This document shows positions 15,637 through 23,236 of a stretch of DNA of 64,000 nucleotides, in pieces. The position numbers and the translations under genes are program-made. Each line of letters begins with the position of its first letter. Positions within the stretch are counted from its first letter, which is position 1. The notes beneath the pieces are model-generated. The model did no database searches and was not told the origin of the DNA. It was given only the letters and a program-made list of their open reading frames with translations. Source of the DNA: Polynucleobacter necessarius (lineage in GTDB: Bacteria > Pseudomonadota > Gammaproteobacteria > Burkholderiales > Burkholderiaceae); NCBI RefSeq assembly GCF_900095215.1, contig NZ_LT606949.1, positions 1,276,690-1,340,689 on the forward strand, read 5' to 3'.

Positions 15637-17538
15637 TCAAGATATCTTACTAGCTCGCGCCTGATGTAGTTTCTTATAGCTATCCAATAGGCGCTGGTGT
15701 CTATCCAGGCCCTCTAAGCTCAAACCAGTGGGCGTTAGCCCATAAAAACGCACGCTACCGTCGATAGAACCCATCACGGCATCCATTCTGGCATCGCCAA
15801 ACATGCGGCGGAAGTGCAATGCGTAATCCGCCATCTCCAACGCTTCATCGAGCATCACTTCGAGGGCCGCATTCAAGACTTGATAAAACAACTTGCGTTC
15901 GACAGTATTGTCGTTGTACTGCAGGAAAGCCCCCCACTAAATCATGCGCCTCTTCAAAGCGTTGCAGGGCGAGATTGATTAGCAACTTCAACTCGAGCAC
16001 CGTGAGTTGGCCACAGACAGTATTCTCATTAAATTCAATCCCAATCAGCGTAGCGATATCCCCATACTCATCGAGCTCGTTATTCTCCAGACGATCGAGT
16101 AAAGACATTAAGCCGGCATCATCTAATTCTGATAACCCGAGAATATCGTTTCGAAATAACAATTCCTTATTGGTGTTATCCCAAATGAGGTCTTCCACTG
16201 GGTAAACCTCAGAATATCCAGGCACTAAGATTCGACAGGCAGTAGCGCCCAATTCGTCATATACCACCACATATACTTCCTTACCCATCTCTTTCAGGAT
16301 GCCAAATAGAGTATCGACCTCTTCGGCATTTGAGTCTTTACCTTTGCCTGAAAAATCCCAATCTACAAATTCATCATTCGATTTAGCGCTGAAGACGCGC
16401 CATGACACGATGCTACTGAAGTCGATAAAGTGCTCAACGAAGTTATTGGGTTCGATTACCGCTTCGCTTGTAAAGGTGGGCTGGGGTAAATCATTCAGAC
16501 CCTCTAGGCTGCGCCGCCACTACAATAGTTCAGTCAGACTACGCTCTAACGCTACCTCTAAGCTGGGATGCGCACCGAATGAAGCAAAGACCCCGCCTGT
16601 GCGTGGATTCATTAAGGTAACGCACATCACTGGATAGATGCCGCCAAGCGATGCATCCTTCACCAATACTGGAAAGCCTTACTCTTCTAGGTTCTGCATG
16701 CCTGCCCAAATTCCAGGGTATCGTGCCAACACTTCCTTTGGGACATCTGGCAAAGCGATTTCACCTTCAATAATTTCTCGCTTAACCGCTCTCTCAAAAA
16801 TTTCCGACAAACATTGCACTTAAGCTTCGGCGAGCGTATTACCAGCACTCATGCCATTGCTCAAAAATAAGTTTTCAATCAAATTCGACGGAAAATAAAT
16901 TGTCTTGCCATCGGATTGACGAACGTACGGCAAAGAACAAATGCCGCGTTGCTGATTCCCAGAATTGGTATCCACCAAATGCGATGCGCGCAACTCGCCA
17001 TCCGGGTTGTAAATCTTTAAACAGTACTCATCCAAAATTTCAGACGGTAATGCATCTTTTGGTCCAGCCTTGAACCACTTTTCGCTGGGATAGTGCACAA
17101 ACGGCGCATTGGCAATCTCCTCCCCCCAGTAAGCGCCAGCATAAAAGTGGTTATTACTAAGACGCTCTATGTACTCTCCCAGGGCTGATGCCAGCGCACT
17201 TTCCTTGGTTGCGCCTTTGCCGTTGGTGAAACACATCGGTGAATGTGCATCGCGGATATGCAAGGACCAGGCATTGGTATTGAATAATGTAAACAACCAA
17301 AACTGCAATTTCATTTCATACCAATAGTAGATAATTCGCAGCCCACCTCGCTTGCCTTTACCTCTATTTGAATCGCCAAACCTTAACTTCCGCAATCCTC
17401 CGGTCCCCGCAATCACATCTCCAGATTTAGGCATGATAAGCAAGAAGTTTTGCAGCTTTCTATACTCATCGTCCGTTATATAATCCTGGCGATAACGCTC
17501 AAACGAGGGCAATTCAACAAACAGTGCTTTGATTTCAT
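15637..17538 (-). pseudogene. ycaO: YcaO-like protein remnant fused to the N-terminal part of a RelE/HigB-like toxin
   Basis: Residues 1-79 of the 5' frame (TTG 17512) are a RelE/ParE-type mRNA-interferase toxin: YITDDEYRKLQNFLL, GDVIAGTGGLRKLRF, RGKGKRGGLRIIYYW, FWLFTLF. At about 17275 this changes without a stop into YcaO from AWSLHIRDAHSPMCFTNGKG onward, including GEYIERLS. About 45 N-terminal YcaO residues, the toxin's end and its antitoxin are missing. YcaO is the ATP-dependent accessory factor for ribosomal protein S12 methylthiolation. The YcaO part has stops at 16820-16822, 16679-16681 and 16520-16522 (all at likely Gln codons) and an extra C in a run at 15930-15935. The toxin's likely original ATG (17538) is itself out of frame by one base. 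Confidence 0.85.
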
Positions 17539-17565
17539 ACTATACGCAACTTGCGTATAAGTCAA
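17539..17565 (-). promoter_or_regulatory. Toxin-antitoxin-type operator/promoter
   Basis: Perfect inverted repeat TATACGCAA-C-TTGCGTATA at 17541-17559, directly upstream of the toxin remnant. On the minus strand it lies between a TTGACT (17560-17565) and a TATAGT (17539-17544) hexamer, so a bound repressor would cover the promoter, as in autoregulated HigBA/RelBE loci. The 15-base spacer is short, so the exact promoter is uncertain. The repressor itself is no longer encoded here. Confidence 0.6.
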
Positions 17566-17706
17566 TAAGCCTAAAACTAGTAGGTTTTAGGGGTATAAGC
17601 ACACCCCGCCCACTTATTACCCACCTTAAGCGACATTGCCATACGGCACTATGCTATCGCTGGAATTATGGCTAAGCGTGGGGATGACTGGAGGATTGCG
17701 GGGGTG

Positions 17707-17727
17707 AGCGTTACTTAAAGTAACGCT
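17707..17727. repeat. Inverted repeat AGCGTTACT/AGTAACGCT
   Basis: Perfect 9-bp arms around TAA in the 212-bp gap between the toxin remnant and the DUF2971 remnant. No T tract, so not a clear terminator. The rest of this gap shows no recognisable gene. Confidence 0.5.
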
Positions 17728-17750
17728 TGGGATTAGTGCATCAAATGGCA

Positions 17751-18402
17751 TCAACCCTTATGTATTGTTTTGGTAACTCCAAATTTAGTAACCGCCAAAC
17801 TCAACTTATGAACACGAACAGGTTGGGAATCTTCATAAAAATTATGTATTAATTTCTGGAAATGCTCTTTAGTTTGATTGCACTTAACCAACATCAACAC
17901 TTCTGTAAGGCGCAATTTTTCTGAAAATAACTCAAAATACATGCCTTTTGACCTATGTGAATTTTTCAATACGGGGAATAATTCTCTGCTCTTTTTCATA
18001 AGCCCAGCCATTAAACTTAATTGCAAAAATATCTAAAGCATCCTTTTTTGACAAATGGCTTTTGCCATCAAATGTCACTCTATTTCTATATCTAACTTTA
18101 ATTAGATCGCTTTCATCTACATCAAACCCCAAACCTATACCCCTATGGTCATCTGCGTAATGTGACCACATTAATGGTGACGTATAGTCGCTAGAAAATG
18201 AAACTACTCCATATGTATTGTTCAAAACATCAACGGATTGCATATTGCAATTGCGCATATTTTTATCGCGTAAATGGATACAAGAGAGCTCGAAAGGATC
18301 ATTAAGCTCCTTAAACCTTGAAATCTTTAGCCACCGTTTCTCAATAGCCTGAATCGCCCACTCTTCTTTCATGCATTTATAAAGCCTCATGAAATTATTC
18401 AC
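17751..18402 (-). pseudogene. DUF2971 family protein, frameshifted
   Basis: Begins MRLYKCM and contains WLKISRFKELNDPFEL and SPLMWSHYADDHRGIGLGFD, the diagnostic DUF2971 blocks, then WAYEKEQRIIP. An extra base in the CCCC run near 17977 shifts the frame to a TAG. The C-terminal part (VLKNSHRSKGMYFELF...) continues in the next frame to 17751. The family is common in mobile and accessory regions but its activity is not established. It overlaps the upstream membrane-protein remnant by 8 bp, so the two formed one operon. The locus is clearly more AT-rich than its neighbours, suggesting acquisition. Confidence 0.75.
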
Positions 18403-19818
18403 TCAACTTAGATTTAAATGTTTGAGATGCCTCTGAAAGCATCTGATGAATAGGCATCTTCTCGTCATGTTTGCCATCAAGAGTAGCCGAAGCATTATAA
18501 GAAATTACATCAATTGCTCGATCCATTAGTTTTTCAATTAGAGAAGAATCATCTAACTTAAGATCTGTAATCTGTTTTTTATCACTCTCATAAGATTTAG
18601 CCATCGCCTCTTTATGTGAGTGCCCTTCAAGCAATCGTTTGTTTTCGCTCCTTCTCTTATTAACAAAGTAGGCAAACCAAATCACAGGAGCATAGATTGG
18701 TAGCTTCATTAAAAATGCCCTGCGTAATTCATCCAGATTTTTAGAGTTATCTGGTGCAAAATACATTGCCATAGAAAGCAATGCAATTAGAGAAATGTAG
18801 AAAACTACCGAATACGCGATGATATATCCTCGGTATGAGCGCTTTTTTTTGCAGAGTACTCACTTGCTAATCCCGCACTTGCGGCGCCAGGAAGTAAATC
18901 CTCTACCTTAAGATTTAATGCATCAAACTTTGCCTGCTGATCAAGCTCAATTTTTGATAATTGATTTAATCTTTCATCAATTTCATTTTTTAGACTGGGT
19001 TGAGGCTCTCCAGAAGGGGCTGGCAAGCCATAGACTTTTGAATAAAAATCTTCCAGCTCTTGTCGTTTGGACTGAATTTCATTGAATGCATTTTCTGATG
19101 CTTCTTTAGCTGCTTGGATAGTTTTTTCACTTTCTGAAACAATATTTTTTAATGCAGGCGCACCATCCTTATCGACCAATAAATCTTCATATAAAGCTTT
19201 AATTTGCTCACTCTTAGAAGTGGGCTCACGTAGAAGATTTTCAAATTTTGCATCTTTCCCTTCGATACCCTCAACCCCAAAGAGACTATGTTGCAAATCA
19301 GAGATTTGTTTGTTAACACCCAGAATGTGTTCCTGAGCCTCATTTACTTTAGATGTAGCAACATTAATTTGCTCAAGATTCGCTTGGGCATTTTTCTCGA
19401 ACGCCTCGAGCGATGAATTGATTGAGGCTGTGTAGGTTTTTAATGCTTCATACAGCGCTTTTGCAGAATCAGCATCTGAAATGATGTATGGCTTTATATA
19501 CGTCAATATGTTATCCGCTGCATCATTTGCAGTTGCTAAATTTGCATTATTGTTCGATGTCGCATATTGATTAATTTGCTGCAAACAGTTATTTGCTTGA
19601 GTCTTAGCGTTATCCAATATAGATAATGGCATTAAATCGGGGTCTACAGATGTCAGAATGCTGTCGATATAAGAATATATTTTGCTTAATCTACCAACCT
19701 CTTCCGTCGTAGCTGTAGCAGTTGGGTCGTCAATGGCTATCTGTGAAATAGCTTCATTCAATTGGTTCCACACCTCATGGAACTGATGAGCTTCAAATGC
19801 GATCGACCATCTTGACAT
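18395..19818 (-). pseudogene. Coiled-coil protein with C-terminal two-helix membrane domain, frameshifted
   Basis: From ATG 19818 (MSRWSIAFEAHQF) about 320 residues of Ala/Asn/Glu-rich helix with heptad-like stretches (e.g. VSESEKTIQAAKEASENAF) are encoded. A T8 run at 18843-18850 (A8 in the coding strand) is one base short. Restoring it joins SEYSAKKKRSYRGYIIAYSVVFYISLIALLSM, a membrane segment, to a second one (LPIYAPVIWFAYFV) and a cytosolic tail with LLEGHSHKEAMAKSYES. I do not recognise a named family. The arrangement of coiled coil then two membrane helices, next to DUF2971 and a toxin remnant, is reminiscent of accessory defence modules, but that is inference only. Confidence 0.65.
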
Positions 19819-19931
19819 ACTAAACCTACCTTTTAAGCTTATCTGACACTTCAATTAGATATGAAATTCATATAGATATCCAGCGATTAAAGGACAAAAC
19901 CCCCACCATTTCTGATGAGGCTTTGCTTTTC

Positions 19932-19960
19932 TGGTTGGCCCACCAGGACTTGAGAACCTG
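19932..19960 (-). repeat. Degenerate copy of the tRNA-Ile 3' end
   Basis: 29 bases resembling 20509-20536, the T-arm, acceptor stem and CCA of the nearby tRNA-Ile, with one substitution and a 2-base insertion. The copy is in the same orientation and lies just after the GNAT stop. It may be a tRNA-gene remnant or an attachment-site-like duplication. A purine/pyrimidine-rich hairpin-like stretch follows on its 3' side, as after the intact tRNA. Confidence 0.6.
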
Positions 19961-19963
19961 TTT

Positions 19964-20458
19964 CTAGGAGGCCTGATTGCTAATACCCAACTTGAAGTAA
20001 GTGGTTCCAATCACCGGGCTCTCGTAGTAAGGCTTAATTTTCATGAAACCCAATCTTTCATACAAAGAAATAGCCTTCTCCATTGTTGGCAAAGTATCCA
20101 ATAACAAACATGAATACCCAGCAGTCTTTGCGTGAGGAGTAATTAGATCAACCAAATGCTTACCAATCTGTAAATTGCGATACTGCGGCCTCACATATAA
20201 ACGCTTCATTTCACATGCCTTGGGACATTGAGTCAAAGCAACCTGGCGAACTGCCACACATCCAGCCAATTGATCATCTACATAAGCAAGAAGAATAATT
20301 AGGCCTTTTGGCTCAGCATATTTTCCCGGCAAAAGTGCCAGCTCTTGCTCAAAGTCTTGATATGCCAAATCAACCCCAATAGCACCCGCATACTCACGAA
20401 ATAGCTCTCGAACTAATTCCATATGCGTTTGGGATGTGGCGTTAATAAATTTCATCAT
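19964..20458 (-). CDS. GNAT family N-acetyltransferase
   Basis: A 164-residue protein with the GNAT fold: an N-terminal helix pair (MELVRELFREYAGAIGVDL), GCVAVRQVAL strand, MKRLYVRPQYRNLQIGKHL (acetyl-CoA pyrophosphate loop, motif A region) and AISLYERLGFMKI near the C-terminus. It transfers acetyl from acetyl-CoA to an unknown amine. I set the start at the ATG-ATG pair at 20453-20458, since the longer frame runs back into the terminator and tRNA. The gene sits between the intron-containing tRNA-Ile and a degenerate copy of that tRNA's 3' end. Confidence 0.85.
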   Translation of the reverse strand: MMKFINATSQTHMELVRELFREYAGAIGVDLAYQDFEQELALLPGKYAEPKGLIILLAYVDDQLAGCVAVRQVALTQCPKACEMKRLYVRPQYRNLQIGKHLVDLITPHAKTAGYSCLLLDTLPTMEKAISLYERLGFMKIKPYYESPVIGTTYFKLGISNQAS

Positions 20459-20479
20459 CAAAATAATGATATCAAATAA

Positions 20480-20508: not shown

Positions 20509-20836
20509 TGGTGGGCCCACCAGGACTTGAACCTGGGACCAAAGGATTCCGGTTTGTGTAATTTTCATTACTCCCTGGACTATGCCTTCATCATATCGAT
20601 TGCTCGACTTAGATGGGTGCCGTCTAGTCTCTACACGTTCAAAGTATTTCTACTAAGCTTCGCTCGGTGTTGCCATATTCGTTTAAAACGATTTGTGCAT
20701 TTAGTCAAAAATACATTAACCCGTTTAAACGACTTTAGGTTTCTCCGAATTTGACACCATCCCTTATGCAGTTTCCACGCATAAGGCACAACTTTCGCTA
20801 TGAGTCCTCTGCTCTAACCAACTGAGCTATGGGCCC
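20509..20836 (-). tRNA. tRNA-Ile (CAU anticodon, AUA-reading) interrupted by a group I intron
   Basis: The exons join to a complete tRNA. The acceptor stem is GGGCCCA/TGGGCCC with encoded CCA, the D arm is GCTCAGTTGGTTAGAGC, the anticodon loop CTCATAA sits within GGA/TCC, and the T arm is CCAGGTTCAAGTCCTGG. The CAU anticodon and identity elements match tRNA-Ile2, whose C34 is converted to lysidine by TilS. Exon 1 is 20800-20836 and exon 2 is 20509-20548. The gene begins 12 bp after the rpoD stop on the same strand, so it may share the rpoD transcript, and a terminator follows it. The main sequence-based ambiguity is one base at the splice junction. Confidence 0.93.
20549..20799 (-). ncRNA. 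Self-splicing group I intron (Azoarcus-like, IC3-type) in the tRNA anticodon loop
   Basis: About 251 nt without an open reading frame for a homing endonuclease. Core elements match the Azoarcus tRNA-Ile intron. The 5' region has a GUG guide that can pair with the exon CAU. GTGTCAAATTCGGAGAAACC (near 20757-20738) is the P3-P4-P5 segment, GAGACTAGACGGCACCC carries the P7 guanosine-binding site, and GGCATAGTCCAGGGAG is the P8-P7' side. The intron ends in G (20549), as required. The peripheral stem around 20670-20735 is enlarged, with CGTTTTAAACG/CGTTTAAACG arms, making it longer than the roughly 205-nt Azoarcus intron. Structural assignment is from motif recognition. Confidence 0.9.
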
Positions 20837-20848
20837 GTTAGTCTTTGA

Positions 20849-23236
20849 TCAATCTTCTTCGAGGAAGGTCTTGAATTTGTCACTACGGCTTGGGTGACGC
20901 ATCTTGCGGAGAGCCTTCGCTTCAATCTGACGAATACGCTCACGTGTAACGTCAAACTGTTTACCTACTTCTTCGAGAGTGTGATCAGTACTCATCTCAA
21001 CACCAAAGCGCATACGTAATACTTTTGCTTCACGCGGTGTCAATGAATCAAGCACGTCTTTCACCACATCACGCATAGAGTCATGCAATGCGGCTTCAGC
21101 CGGAGCCAAGGTATTACCGTCTTCAATGAAGTCGCCCAAATGAGAGTCCTCATCATCACCAATTGGCGTCTCCATGGAGATAGGCTCTTTAGCGATCTTC
21201 ATGATCTTACGAATCTTATCTTCCGGAATCTCCATCTTCAGCGCCAAGGTTGCCGCATCTGGCTCATGGCCAGTTTCTTGCAAGATCTGACGGCTGATAC
21301 GGTTCATCTTATTGATCGTCTCAATCATATGAACTGGAATACGGATCGTGCGAGCCTGGTCAGCGATCGAACGAGTAATCGCCTGACGAATCCACCATGT
21401 CGCATAGGTAGAGAACTTATAGCCACGACGGTATTCAAACTTATCCACCGCCTTCATCAAGCCGATATTGCCTTCTTGAATCAAATCCAAGAACTGCAAA
21501 CCACGGTTGGTGTACTTCTTAGCAATGGAAATAACCAAACGCAAGTTAGCTACAGTCATCTCACGCTTCGCTTCACGAGCACGCTTCTCGCCCGCGAGCA
21601 TTTGCTTGTTCACTTCTTTCAACTCTGGCAATGGAAGGACGACATTCTTTTGAATATCAATCAATTTCTGTTGCAACTCTTGAATCGCTGGAACATTACG
21701 CTGTAAGAGCGCACTGTAAGGCTTGTTCTCTTTCAATAACTTGTCTGTCCAAGCGAGGTTCATTGACATCTTAGGGAAGTCTTTTAATACCTCACCACGA
21801 TTCACGCCAACCTTATCCACCAACAAGCTCACGATACCGCGCTCGAGCTTCCAAACCTGGTCAACTTGTGAACGCATGGTGTCGCACAGCTTCTCAACAC
21901 TCTTCGCTGTTAAACGGAAACCCAGCAGCTCAGCGCGAATTACATCTTGTGCTTTAACGTAAGCAGGACAGTTGTAACCATCTTTATCGAAGGCGCGACG
22001 CATTTTCTCGGCTTGCGTACGAACAACCGCAAACTTCTCTAAAGAAATCTGCTTCAATTCTTCTAATTGCTTGGCATTTGCTGTCGCAGCACCACCGCCG
22101 CCACCGCCACCTTCTTCGCCGTCTTCAGCATCTGGATCTATCTCTGGCTCATCTGGTCCAAGCTTAATATCTTCCGCATTTGGATCAAGCAAACCGTCGA
22201 CAAACTGGTCGATCTCCATCTCGCCACTAGCGATCTTGTCAACGTTACTCAGAATCTCAGCAATCGTTACAGGGCAAGCAGCCAAAGCCATCACCATATC
22301 TTTAAGGCCGGCTTCAATCTTCTTCGCAATAACGATCTCGCCTTCGCGAGTTAACAGGTCTACTGTACCCATCTCACGCATATACATACGTACTGGGTCG
22401 GTTGTGCGACCAAACTCGGAATCCACTGTGGATAGAGCTGCTTCCGCCTCTTCCTCAGCCTCCTCTTCAGATGCTGCGGCAGATGCGTTATCAGACAGAA
22501 TTAGTGTTTCTGCATCAGGAGCCTGTTCGTAAACAGTAATACCGATGTCATTGAGCAAGCTAATCAAAGTTTCTAATGCATCAGCATCAGACAACTCGTC
22601 AGACATCACGTCATGCATCTCGCCATGGGTTAAGTAACCCTTGGACATACCCATCTTGATCAAAGTCTTCAAGCGAGCACGACGTAATTCTTGCTGCTCT
22701 TCTGTGCCCAACTGTTGCGCGGCAAATTCTTTTAAAAGCGCTTTTTCTTTTGCCTTACGCTCACGCGCTTTTTGACGATCCGTTAATACTGGCTCTGCAG
22801 CTTCAGCGGGCGCATCCGCTTTTGCTTTGCGGCCACGCTTCTTTTCTTCTTCAACCACTACAGGCGCTTCAGCTTCTGCGACCTTGGCTTTTTTGCCCTT
22901 CGTTTCTTTGGCTTCTTTCATTTCTTTTGCTGCTTTAGCTGGCTCAGCCTTAGGTGCCGCTACCGCTTTACCTTTTTTAACTGGCTTTACTTTCACTTCC
23001 GCTTTAGCAGCTTTTGCAGGCACTTTGGCAACAGGTTTAGCGGGAGCGGATTTTGCAGCCGCCTTTACTGGCTTGGCTGGTGTCTTCGCTTTTGGAGCTG
23101 GGTTAGCTGGGGCTTTTGCCTTAGGTGCTGGCTTGGCCGGAGCTTTTGCTTTAACAACAGGCTTTGCAGCCGCCTTTACTGGCTTGGCTGGTGTCTTCGC
23201 TTTTGGAGCTGGTTGTTTGGTCTTGGTATTCGGCAT
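20849..23236 (-). CDS. rpoD: RNA polymerase primary sigma factor (sigma-70)
   Basis: Directs core RNA polymerase to housekeeping promoters. The 795-residue protein has a Lys/Pro/Ala-rich extension (residues 1 to about 150), region 1.1 (about 180-250), region 1.2 ([12 protein letters not shown]), region 2 with the -10-binding [14 protein letters not shown], region 3 and region 4 with the helix-turn-helix [20 protein letters not shown]. It is longer than the roughly 613-residue E. coli protein because of the N-terminal extension, which contains a 50-bp DNA repeat. Intact. Third gene of the rpsU-yqeY-dnaG-rpoD operon; the 245 bp before it may hold an internal promoter. Confidence 0.97.
23052..23212. 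repeat. 50-bp direct repeat inside rpoD
   Basis: Identical 50-base units at 23052-23101 and 23163-23212 encode two copies of an Ala/Pro/Lys segment ([17 protein letters not shown]) in the N-terminal extension of sigma-70. Spacing is 111 bp, in phase, so recombination between them would delete 37 codons without a frameshift. Confidence 0.9.

Follow-up and report, generated by a model that had tools for sequence, protein, structure and literature searches.

The window, a 64-kb stretch of a Polynucleobacter necessarius genome, contains an Azoarcus-type group I intron inside the sole tRNA-Ile(CAU) gene of that genome, just after rpoD. With a probability of roughly 0.6, we read tRNA-Ile(CAU) as the attachment (att) site of tyrosine-integrase elements that carry an intron-masked replacement copy of the gene, the intron as spreading with these elements and the window copy as the relic of one of them.

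The split tRNA-Ile(CAU) gene and its intron

When introns were allowed, ARAGORN detected a single tRNA(cat) in the window, at complement(20509..20836), made up of 77 nt of exons and a 251-nt intron. Without introns, the same program returned no tRNAs across the 64 kb, and hence tRNA finders can miss this gene, as the first-pass annotation had cautioned. The 5' exon (20800..20836, minus strand; 37 nt) has the anticodon CAT at its end (20800-20802), the intron (20549..20799, minus strand) lies between tRNA positions 36 and 37 with the junctions ctcat-intron-aatcc, and the 3' exon (20509..20548, minus strand; 40 nt) encodes the CCA. These boundaries agreed with the insert length and the terminal G (20549) given in that annotation, and its claim of a perfect rebuilt tRNA was borne out by the joined exons, which were 100% identical over 77 nt to intronless tRNA genes in nine same-genus genomes (among the matches listed; 101 genomes were searched). 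The upstream neighbor, as had been noted, is rpoD (sigma-70; 20849..23236, minus strand; taken from the ORF list and named from sequence resemblance), whose stop codon is separated from the tRNA gene by 12 bases. In relatives, rpoD also adjoins this tRNA gene.

A covariance search with RF00028, proposed at first pass as a check, was significant: the match at 20556-20812 scored 59.4 bits (gathering cut-off, 50; E value, 1.2e-13 for the 5 kb searched) and upheld the group I intron that ARAGORN placed in the anticodon loop. The whole genome (1,703,354 bases in one contig, 99.94% complete and, at 1.70 Mb, near the small end of the sizes in the genus) contained this match only. The stretch 20550-20800, one base off the intron, folded better than shuffled sequences (z, -2.5), and a long hairpin was predicted within it at 20680..20731 (minus strand). 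This is the enlarged peripheral stem of the earlier description, and the intron alignment supported it as real, as it was also present in the introns of loci L014 and L022, both of which sit behind a AATCTAATTAAG left end of the elements described below. One ORF of at least 60 aa overlapped the intron, a 75-aa frame on the opposite strand (20527-20754) that runs into the 3' exon; no homing endonuclease was recognized in the 251-nt intron among ORFs of at least 60 aa, in keeping with the earlier statement that such a gene is missing.

A total of 114 introns were extracted from loci and 56 were chosen for diversity, of which 45 were aligned and 11 were left out. RNAalifold, which performs nested folding only and has the P3/P7 crossing outside its score, found 57 consensus pairs in the 45 introns, 29 of them with compensatory changes on both sides. 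The sequence UGUGC (columns T20-C24) was invariant in 45/45 aligned introns and includes the GUG at 20787..20789 (minus strand) of the window, the putative internal guide sequence for the CAU of the 5' exon by analogy with the Azoarcus ribozyme. The group I intron of the Azoarcus tRNA-Ile(CAU) is a small self-splicing ribozyme that holds no gene, is inserted after CAU, has the guide GUG and ends in G. The window intron resembles it in the tRNA interrupted, the insertion after the anticodon CAU, the GUG guide, the lack of a gene and the final G. The label Azoarcus type was retained on the CAU-adjacent insertion and the GUG guide, that is, on the general definition of the type. The window intron differs from that of Azoarcus in its 251-nt length with the enlarged peripheral stem and, in Polynucleobacter, in being tied to integrative elements, a tie that is not known to have been described for Azoarcus. 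Judged by its sequence, the window intron would be expected to self-splice.

The family is widespread. RF00028 matches were present in 45/150 relatives, several of which had two to four copies, and a scan of named genomes with a core pattern yielded 107 loci, distributed over Polynucleobacter, Methylophilaceae, Rhodocyclaceae, Oxalobacteraceae, Limnobacter and other groups, Azonexaceae among them. The 107 loci held 108 motif places, 88 of which were a tRNA(cat) with an intron by ARAGORN; 18 had no ARAGORN tRNA, several of these being at contig ends or without a 5' exon, and two lay in other tRNAs (L105 and L127). At loci L067 and L099, a MAG titled Klebsiella pneumoniae and a Nevskiaceae MAG had split-tRNA introns of almost the same sequence; the Klebsiella title appears to be a case of mislabeling or misbinning. 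A plasmid search with the split gene matched four records, none over 80% of the gene. In the intron tree, the introns of this first kind in the genus formed one clade together with some Burkholderiales MAGs; the window intron was basal in a 54-row clade, sister to the remaining 53 rows (95/88 and 89/79), and did not group specifically with those of genomes G032 and G044. By identity among the full-length genus introns compared, its nearest matches were those of G032 (94%), G044 (93%), G077 (88%) and G026 (84%), all of which stand behind a AATCTAATTAAG left end.

A covariance model found 36 further tRNA genes in the genome, and a second intact tRNA-Ile(CAU) gene, which the first-pass annotation had named as evidence that would count against it, was absent from the genome-wide search. 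The two other CAU tRNAs detected by ARAGORN were elongator-Met-like and initiator-Met-like (a call made by eye from the sequence), and therefore the split gene is the only tRNA-Ile(CAU). TilS, which makes a CAU tRNA-Ile read AUA, is encoded in the genome (TIGR02432, 196.5 bits, E value of 4e-58; PF01171, 195.1 bits). The split gene is in these terms a lysidine-type tRNA-Ile(CAU): distinct from Met and fMet, present as a sole copy and accompanied by an encoded TilS.

Integrative elements at the tRNA-Ile site

In closed genomes of the genus, the order of features was rpoD, a tRNA 5' half (..CTCATAA), a left end of 160 to 220 bp with short direct repeats, a complete intron-split tRNA-Ile gene, often an integrase gene, cargo, and a right end followed by CTCATAATCC and a 3' half. 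The bases common to both junctions, CTCATAA, are the anticodon loop. Tyrosine-integrase elements would attach at the tRNA-Ile(CAU) gene after rpoD with a crossover within this 7-bp loop, so that the left junction would keep the 5' half of the gene and the right junction the 3' half. The type of element seen most often would also repair the damage, as it carries a complete tRNA-Ile between the left-end repeats and the integrase.

All parts of an element were present in 6/18 mapped arrays with a left end and an intron (G032, G026, G016, G031, G059 and G047), and the integrase lay within 8.1 kb of rpoD in 11 of the 18; four mapped arrays (G010, G038, G150 and G176) had a right end and no integrase match. 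The element integrases matched PHROG_1 (E values of 2.2e-32 and 1.2e-31), with one of the two giving a Pfam Phage_integrase match below that model's cut-off (E value, 0.0018) and the other giving none. The G032 and G026 elements had in common the AATCTAATTAAG left end and the CTTCTACA right end, and their integrases were 88% identical to each other. The elements of G016, G031, G059 and G047 shared a left end starting with AAGAAAG, their integrases had 38% identity to the G032 enzyme, and three of the four had ACACACC flagged at the right end, G047 being the exception. As left end, right end and integrase varied together, the split tRNA is situated inside the element. An integrase and paired att junctions, the hallmarks of a tRNA-targeting integrative element, were found together at these loci.

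An empty site was identified for one of the 17 distal junctions tried: over 1,500 bp, the sequence following the G040 distal 3' half matched that following the intact G166 tRNA with 97% identity, beginning at the first base. For G032 (versus G012) and one G010 junction (versus G045), the sequences were colinear from about base 250 on, and most of the remaining distal junctions had only short or offset matches to intact-site genomes.

A different group I-like intron was located between U33 and C34 in G001, G019, G043 and G163, where the gene is behind a left end, and in G025. The copy in G163 (L256, 688-905) gave an RF00028 score of 35.6 bits, under the cut-off, with an E value of 1.3e-6. Both introns interrupt one and the same 7-bp anticodon loop.

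We also considered whether units of 230 bp (5' half, left end and 5' half) could be mini-elements lying beside an already split gene. This was rejected as the main picture since ends of matching type, with a matching integrase, enclose the split copy; individual arrays, for example the tandem units of G087, may fit the mini-element reading. Another type of element uses the same tRNA in G006 (L273), G027 (L274) and G040 (L238), where a left junction is followed by an integrase 28 to 30% identical to that of G032; it spans about 5.5 kb and is followed by a complete intronless tRNA in G006 and G027 and by another 5' half in G040. In nine intact genomes inspected, the genes after tRNA-Ile differed between species, giving the appearance of an insertion hot spot.

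Association of intron and element, and the window copy

Ends of rpoD were found in 111/121 genus genomes; 110 genomes were mapped, and 94 of these were classified. A left end plus an intron was present in 33 genomes, a left end plus an intronless copy in 4 (G014, G020, G073 and G088), an intron without an upstream 5' half in 4 (G000, which is the genome of the window, G003, G023 and G025) and an intact intronless gene in 53. The 16 unclassified genomes comprised 8 that were truncated, 5 with other architectures, 2 with a left end but truncated and 1 without an rpoD end. The intron was therefore present in 33/37 copies preceded by a left end versus 4/57 others (Fisher P value of 1.4e-16, uncorrected for descent). 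On an rpoD tree built from 414 to 420 bases, 30 changes were counted for the left end and 28 for the intron; among 16 independent pairs on supported branches, 12.3 differed in the same direction, none in the opposite direction and 3.7 showed no difference (sign test P value of 0.0005). In G003 and G025, the last bases of a left end were still upstream of the split gene, which leaves G000 and G023 as the two genomes whose intron-split gene has native flanks. Both of these genomes have a decayed second tRNA 3' end downstream. Among the left-end-preceded intronless copies, that of G014 resembled a whole element, with an integrase at +7 kb and a right end at +38 kb, indicating that the intron is not required by the element.

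Integrases of near full length with 86% or more identity to the G016 enzyme were detected in 15/121 genomes, 13 of which had a left end plus an intron; the other two were G014, with a left end and an intronless copy, and G009, which was unclassified. This class was found in 0/53 intact intronless genomes, one of which (G012) had a 60-residue integrase fragment with 97% identity. It was absent from 20/33 genomes with a left end and an intron, some of which have another class (G032 and G026), and no integrase match at 1e-20 was obtained in G005, G030, G038 or G043. At this threshold, the same query matched in 67/121 genus genomes. The window's genome had no integrase of this family at an E value of 1e-3.

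In the window, 0.55 kb downstream of the split gene and past a GNAT acetyltransferase ORF (19964..20467, minus strand; PF00583, E value of 8.7e-16), sequence comparison revealed a decayed second tRNA 3' end (19932..19960, minus strand), corresponding to bases 14-40 of the 3' exon with 90% identity. The terminator-like sequence after it was 95% identical over 44 nt to that after the intact tRNA of G158. We read this remnant as a probable scar of the right junction of an element. The window copy has native flanks and occupies the host position, 12 bases beyond rpoD, and the window contained no left end, right end or integrase, so that the combination of an integrase with both junctions seen in relatives is missing from it. 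The window copy looks like the leftover of an element, a relic at most: the element would have gone, leaving the split gene at the host position and the decayed 3' end downstream. Our guess is that the left end was lost by recombination between identical 5' exons. Farther downstream of the presumed scar, 15819-19854 includes a DUF2971 ORF and other small ORFs. One of the ORFs in this region (16820-17512) has an N-terminal resemblance, by eye, to a RelE/HigB-type toxin, with part of a YcaO domain (PF02624, E value of 2e-22, profile positions 1-128 of 325) after it, and may be island debris.

Integrase targeting and the proposed role of the intron

If integrases recognize the anticodon loop, a gene interrupted there should be hit less often. 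At 51 places, spread over 37/121 genomes, the right end TCTGCTCTCATA was joined to ATCC, with which an intronless 3' half begins. A whole 3' half was seen at 15 of the 51 places, and a reversed control pattern gave zero matches in the 121 genomes. The same right end was joined to an intron at two places in 2/121 genomes (G007 and G087). The two patterns were unequal (23 bases for the intron versus 16 for the intronless junction) and covered one right-end sequence. A looser intron-junction pattern brought in seven matches with one mismatch and a single exact match, the latter at a G031 position lacking an RF00028 intron; its control gave three matches. Compared with a share of split genes of 37/94, 2 of 53 junctions gave a P value of 1.9e-9, or 7e-4 if the share was set at 20%, both being face-value figures; the 51-to-2 ratio and its P value overstate any avoidance, because first insertions into intronless genes precede any split copy. 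Integration into split genes was seen by sequence at L013 (G007), L042 (G087), L061 and the gammaproteobacterial L081, and any shield must therefore leak.

From these patterns we infer that the intron travels with the elements as they spread and turns the replacement tRNA into a poor target for the integrase. The intron of the replacement gene sits in the same 7-bp loop, so that its DNA would offer the integrase no intact target; self-splicing would restore a normal tRNA, which TilS would then modify, and the intron would be favored because the replacement copy is poor prey for its own and rival integrases. A shield role is well motivated by these observations. The broader proposal, in which the att site is hidden in DNA and restored in RNA, two introns were recruited for this purpose and the Azoarcus-type introns of the genus owe their spread to it, is tentative, and we hold it with somewhat less than even confidence.

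The association could also have arisen if the tRNA copies of founder elements already held introns, which have since been carried along without benefit to the element. The intronless copies behind left ends (G014, G020, G073 and G088), the single clade that first-kind introns of the genus form with some Burkholderiales MAGs and the occurrence of integration into split genes would all fit such a neutral history. We nevertheless consider it rather unlikely, as two different introns occupy two positions of one 7-nt loop in element-borne copies, at least three types of left end carry introns, and both the intron distribution (33/37 versus 4/57) and the junction counts (51 versus 2) are skewed.

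Two further accounts place the origin of the pattern outside the elements. As in Azoarcus, the host tRNA gene could simply have a group I intron of the ordinary, vertically inherited kind, near which islands inserted by coincidence. The native flanks and host position of the window copy, 12 bases from rpoD, are what this account would lead one to expect, and the rpoD-linked introns of Rhodocyclaceae, Uliginosibacterium and Pseudoduganella, for which no left end was seen, fit it as well. It is hard to reconcile with the patchiness of the intron in the genus, which changes 28 times on the rpoD tree and is missing from the 53/94 genomes with an intact intronless gene, with the position of the nearest introns by identity behind left ends and with the restriction of the close integrase class, among classified genomes, to those with left ends; we judge it improbable. 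Slightly more doubtful still is a self-mobile intron, propagated through reverse splicing or by a homing system since lost, that prefers exposed anticodon loops and hits element-borne copies in proportion to their number. Its fixed insertion site beside a match to the guide sequence and its presence in many families of Betaproteobacteria speak for such mobility, but no endonuclease gene was recognized among ORFs of at least 60 aa, and the intact intronless host genes of 53/94 genomes would be equally good targets, yet only the introns of G000 and G023 are natively flanked.

Beyond the genus, a 5' half with a non-tRNA continuation was located upstream of the split copy in Methylophilaceae (L050, L054 and L082), Sterolibacterium (L048), Gulbenkiania (L039), Massilia (L079), Duganella (L128) and a gammaproteobacterial MAG (L129). 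Eight loci from Rhodocyclaceae, Uliginosibacterium and some Pseudoduganella (L037, L049, L077, L085, L096, L125, L135 and L136) had no upstream 5' half and a split gene 54 to 106 bases after rpoD; no left end was seen in these groups.

Interrupted tRNA genes have a precedent in archaea, where tRNA introns and split tRNA genes have been proposed as a protection against integration. The shared logic is that interrupting a tRNA gene spoils it as a place to integrate; the difference is that the putative shield in Polynucleobacter is a bacterial group I ribozyme borne by the integrating element itself. The present case bears on two old questions, namely, why group I introns without homing genes persist in the anticodon loops of bacterial tRNAs and whether tRNA introns shield against integration. 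With about 100 species that have or lack the element and the intron at one site, Polynucleobacter provides a natural experiment, and a protective role predicts that a split target is worse than an intronless one.

In literature searches, from which most subscription papers were out of scope, no paper was found that pairs Polynucleobacter with a group I intron, and none that brings a group I intron together with tRNA-Ile and Azoarcus; nothing alike appeared in the titles and abstract openings of the papers listed on group I introns, tRNA genes, integrases and genomic islands. As far as these searches reach, the intron itself belongs to the known Azoarcus type and its element context is new, as is an element with an intron-split replacement tRNA among tRNA-targeting integrative elements. 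The elements resemble tycheposons and other tRNA-targeting tyrosine-integrase islands in having an integrase, a tRNA gene at one end, a tRNA fragment at the other and up to tens of kilobases between; they differ in the crossover in the anticodon loop and in the complete replacement tRNA with a predicted self-splicing intron. A Methylophilaceae tycheposon begins with tRNA-Met(cat) and xerD (PMC10872708), and the word "intron" occurs zero times in the main text of that paper. The published tycheposon at "tRNA-Met(cat)" (fGI-3 of Methylopumilus; PMC10872708) may be at the tRNA-Ile(CAU) locus, because ARAGORN labels such genes Met. At the Methylopumilus locus in our own set (L082), the split gene was behind a left end.
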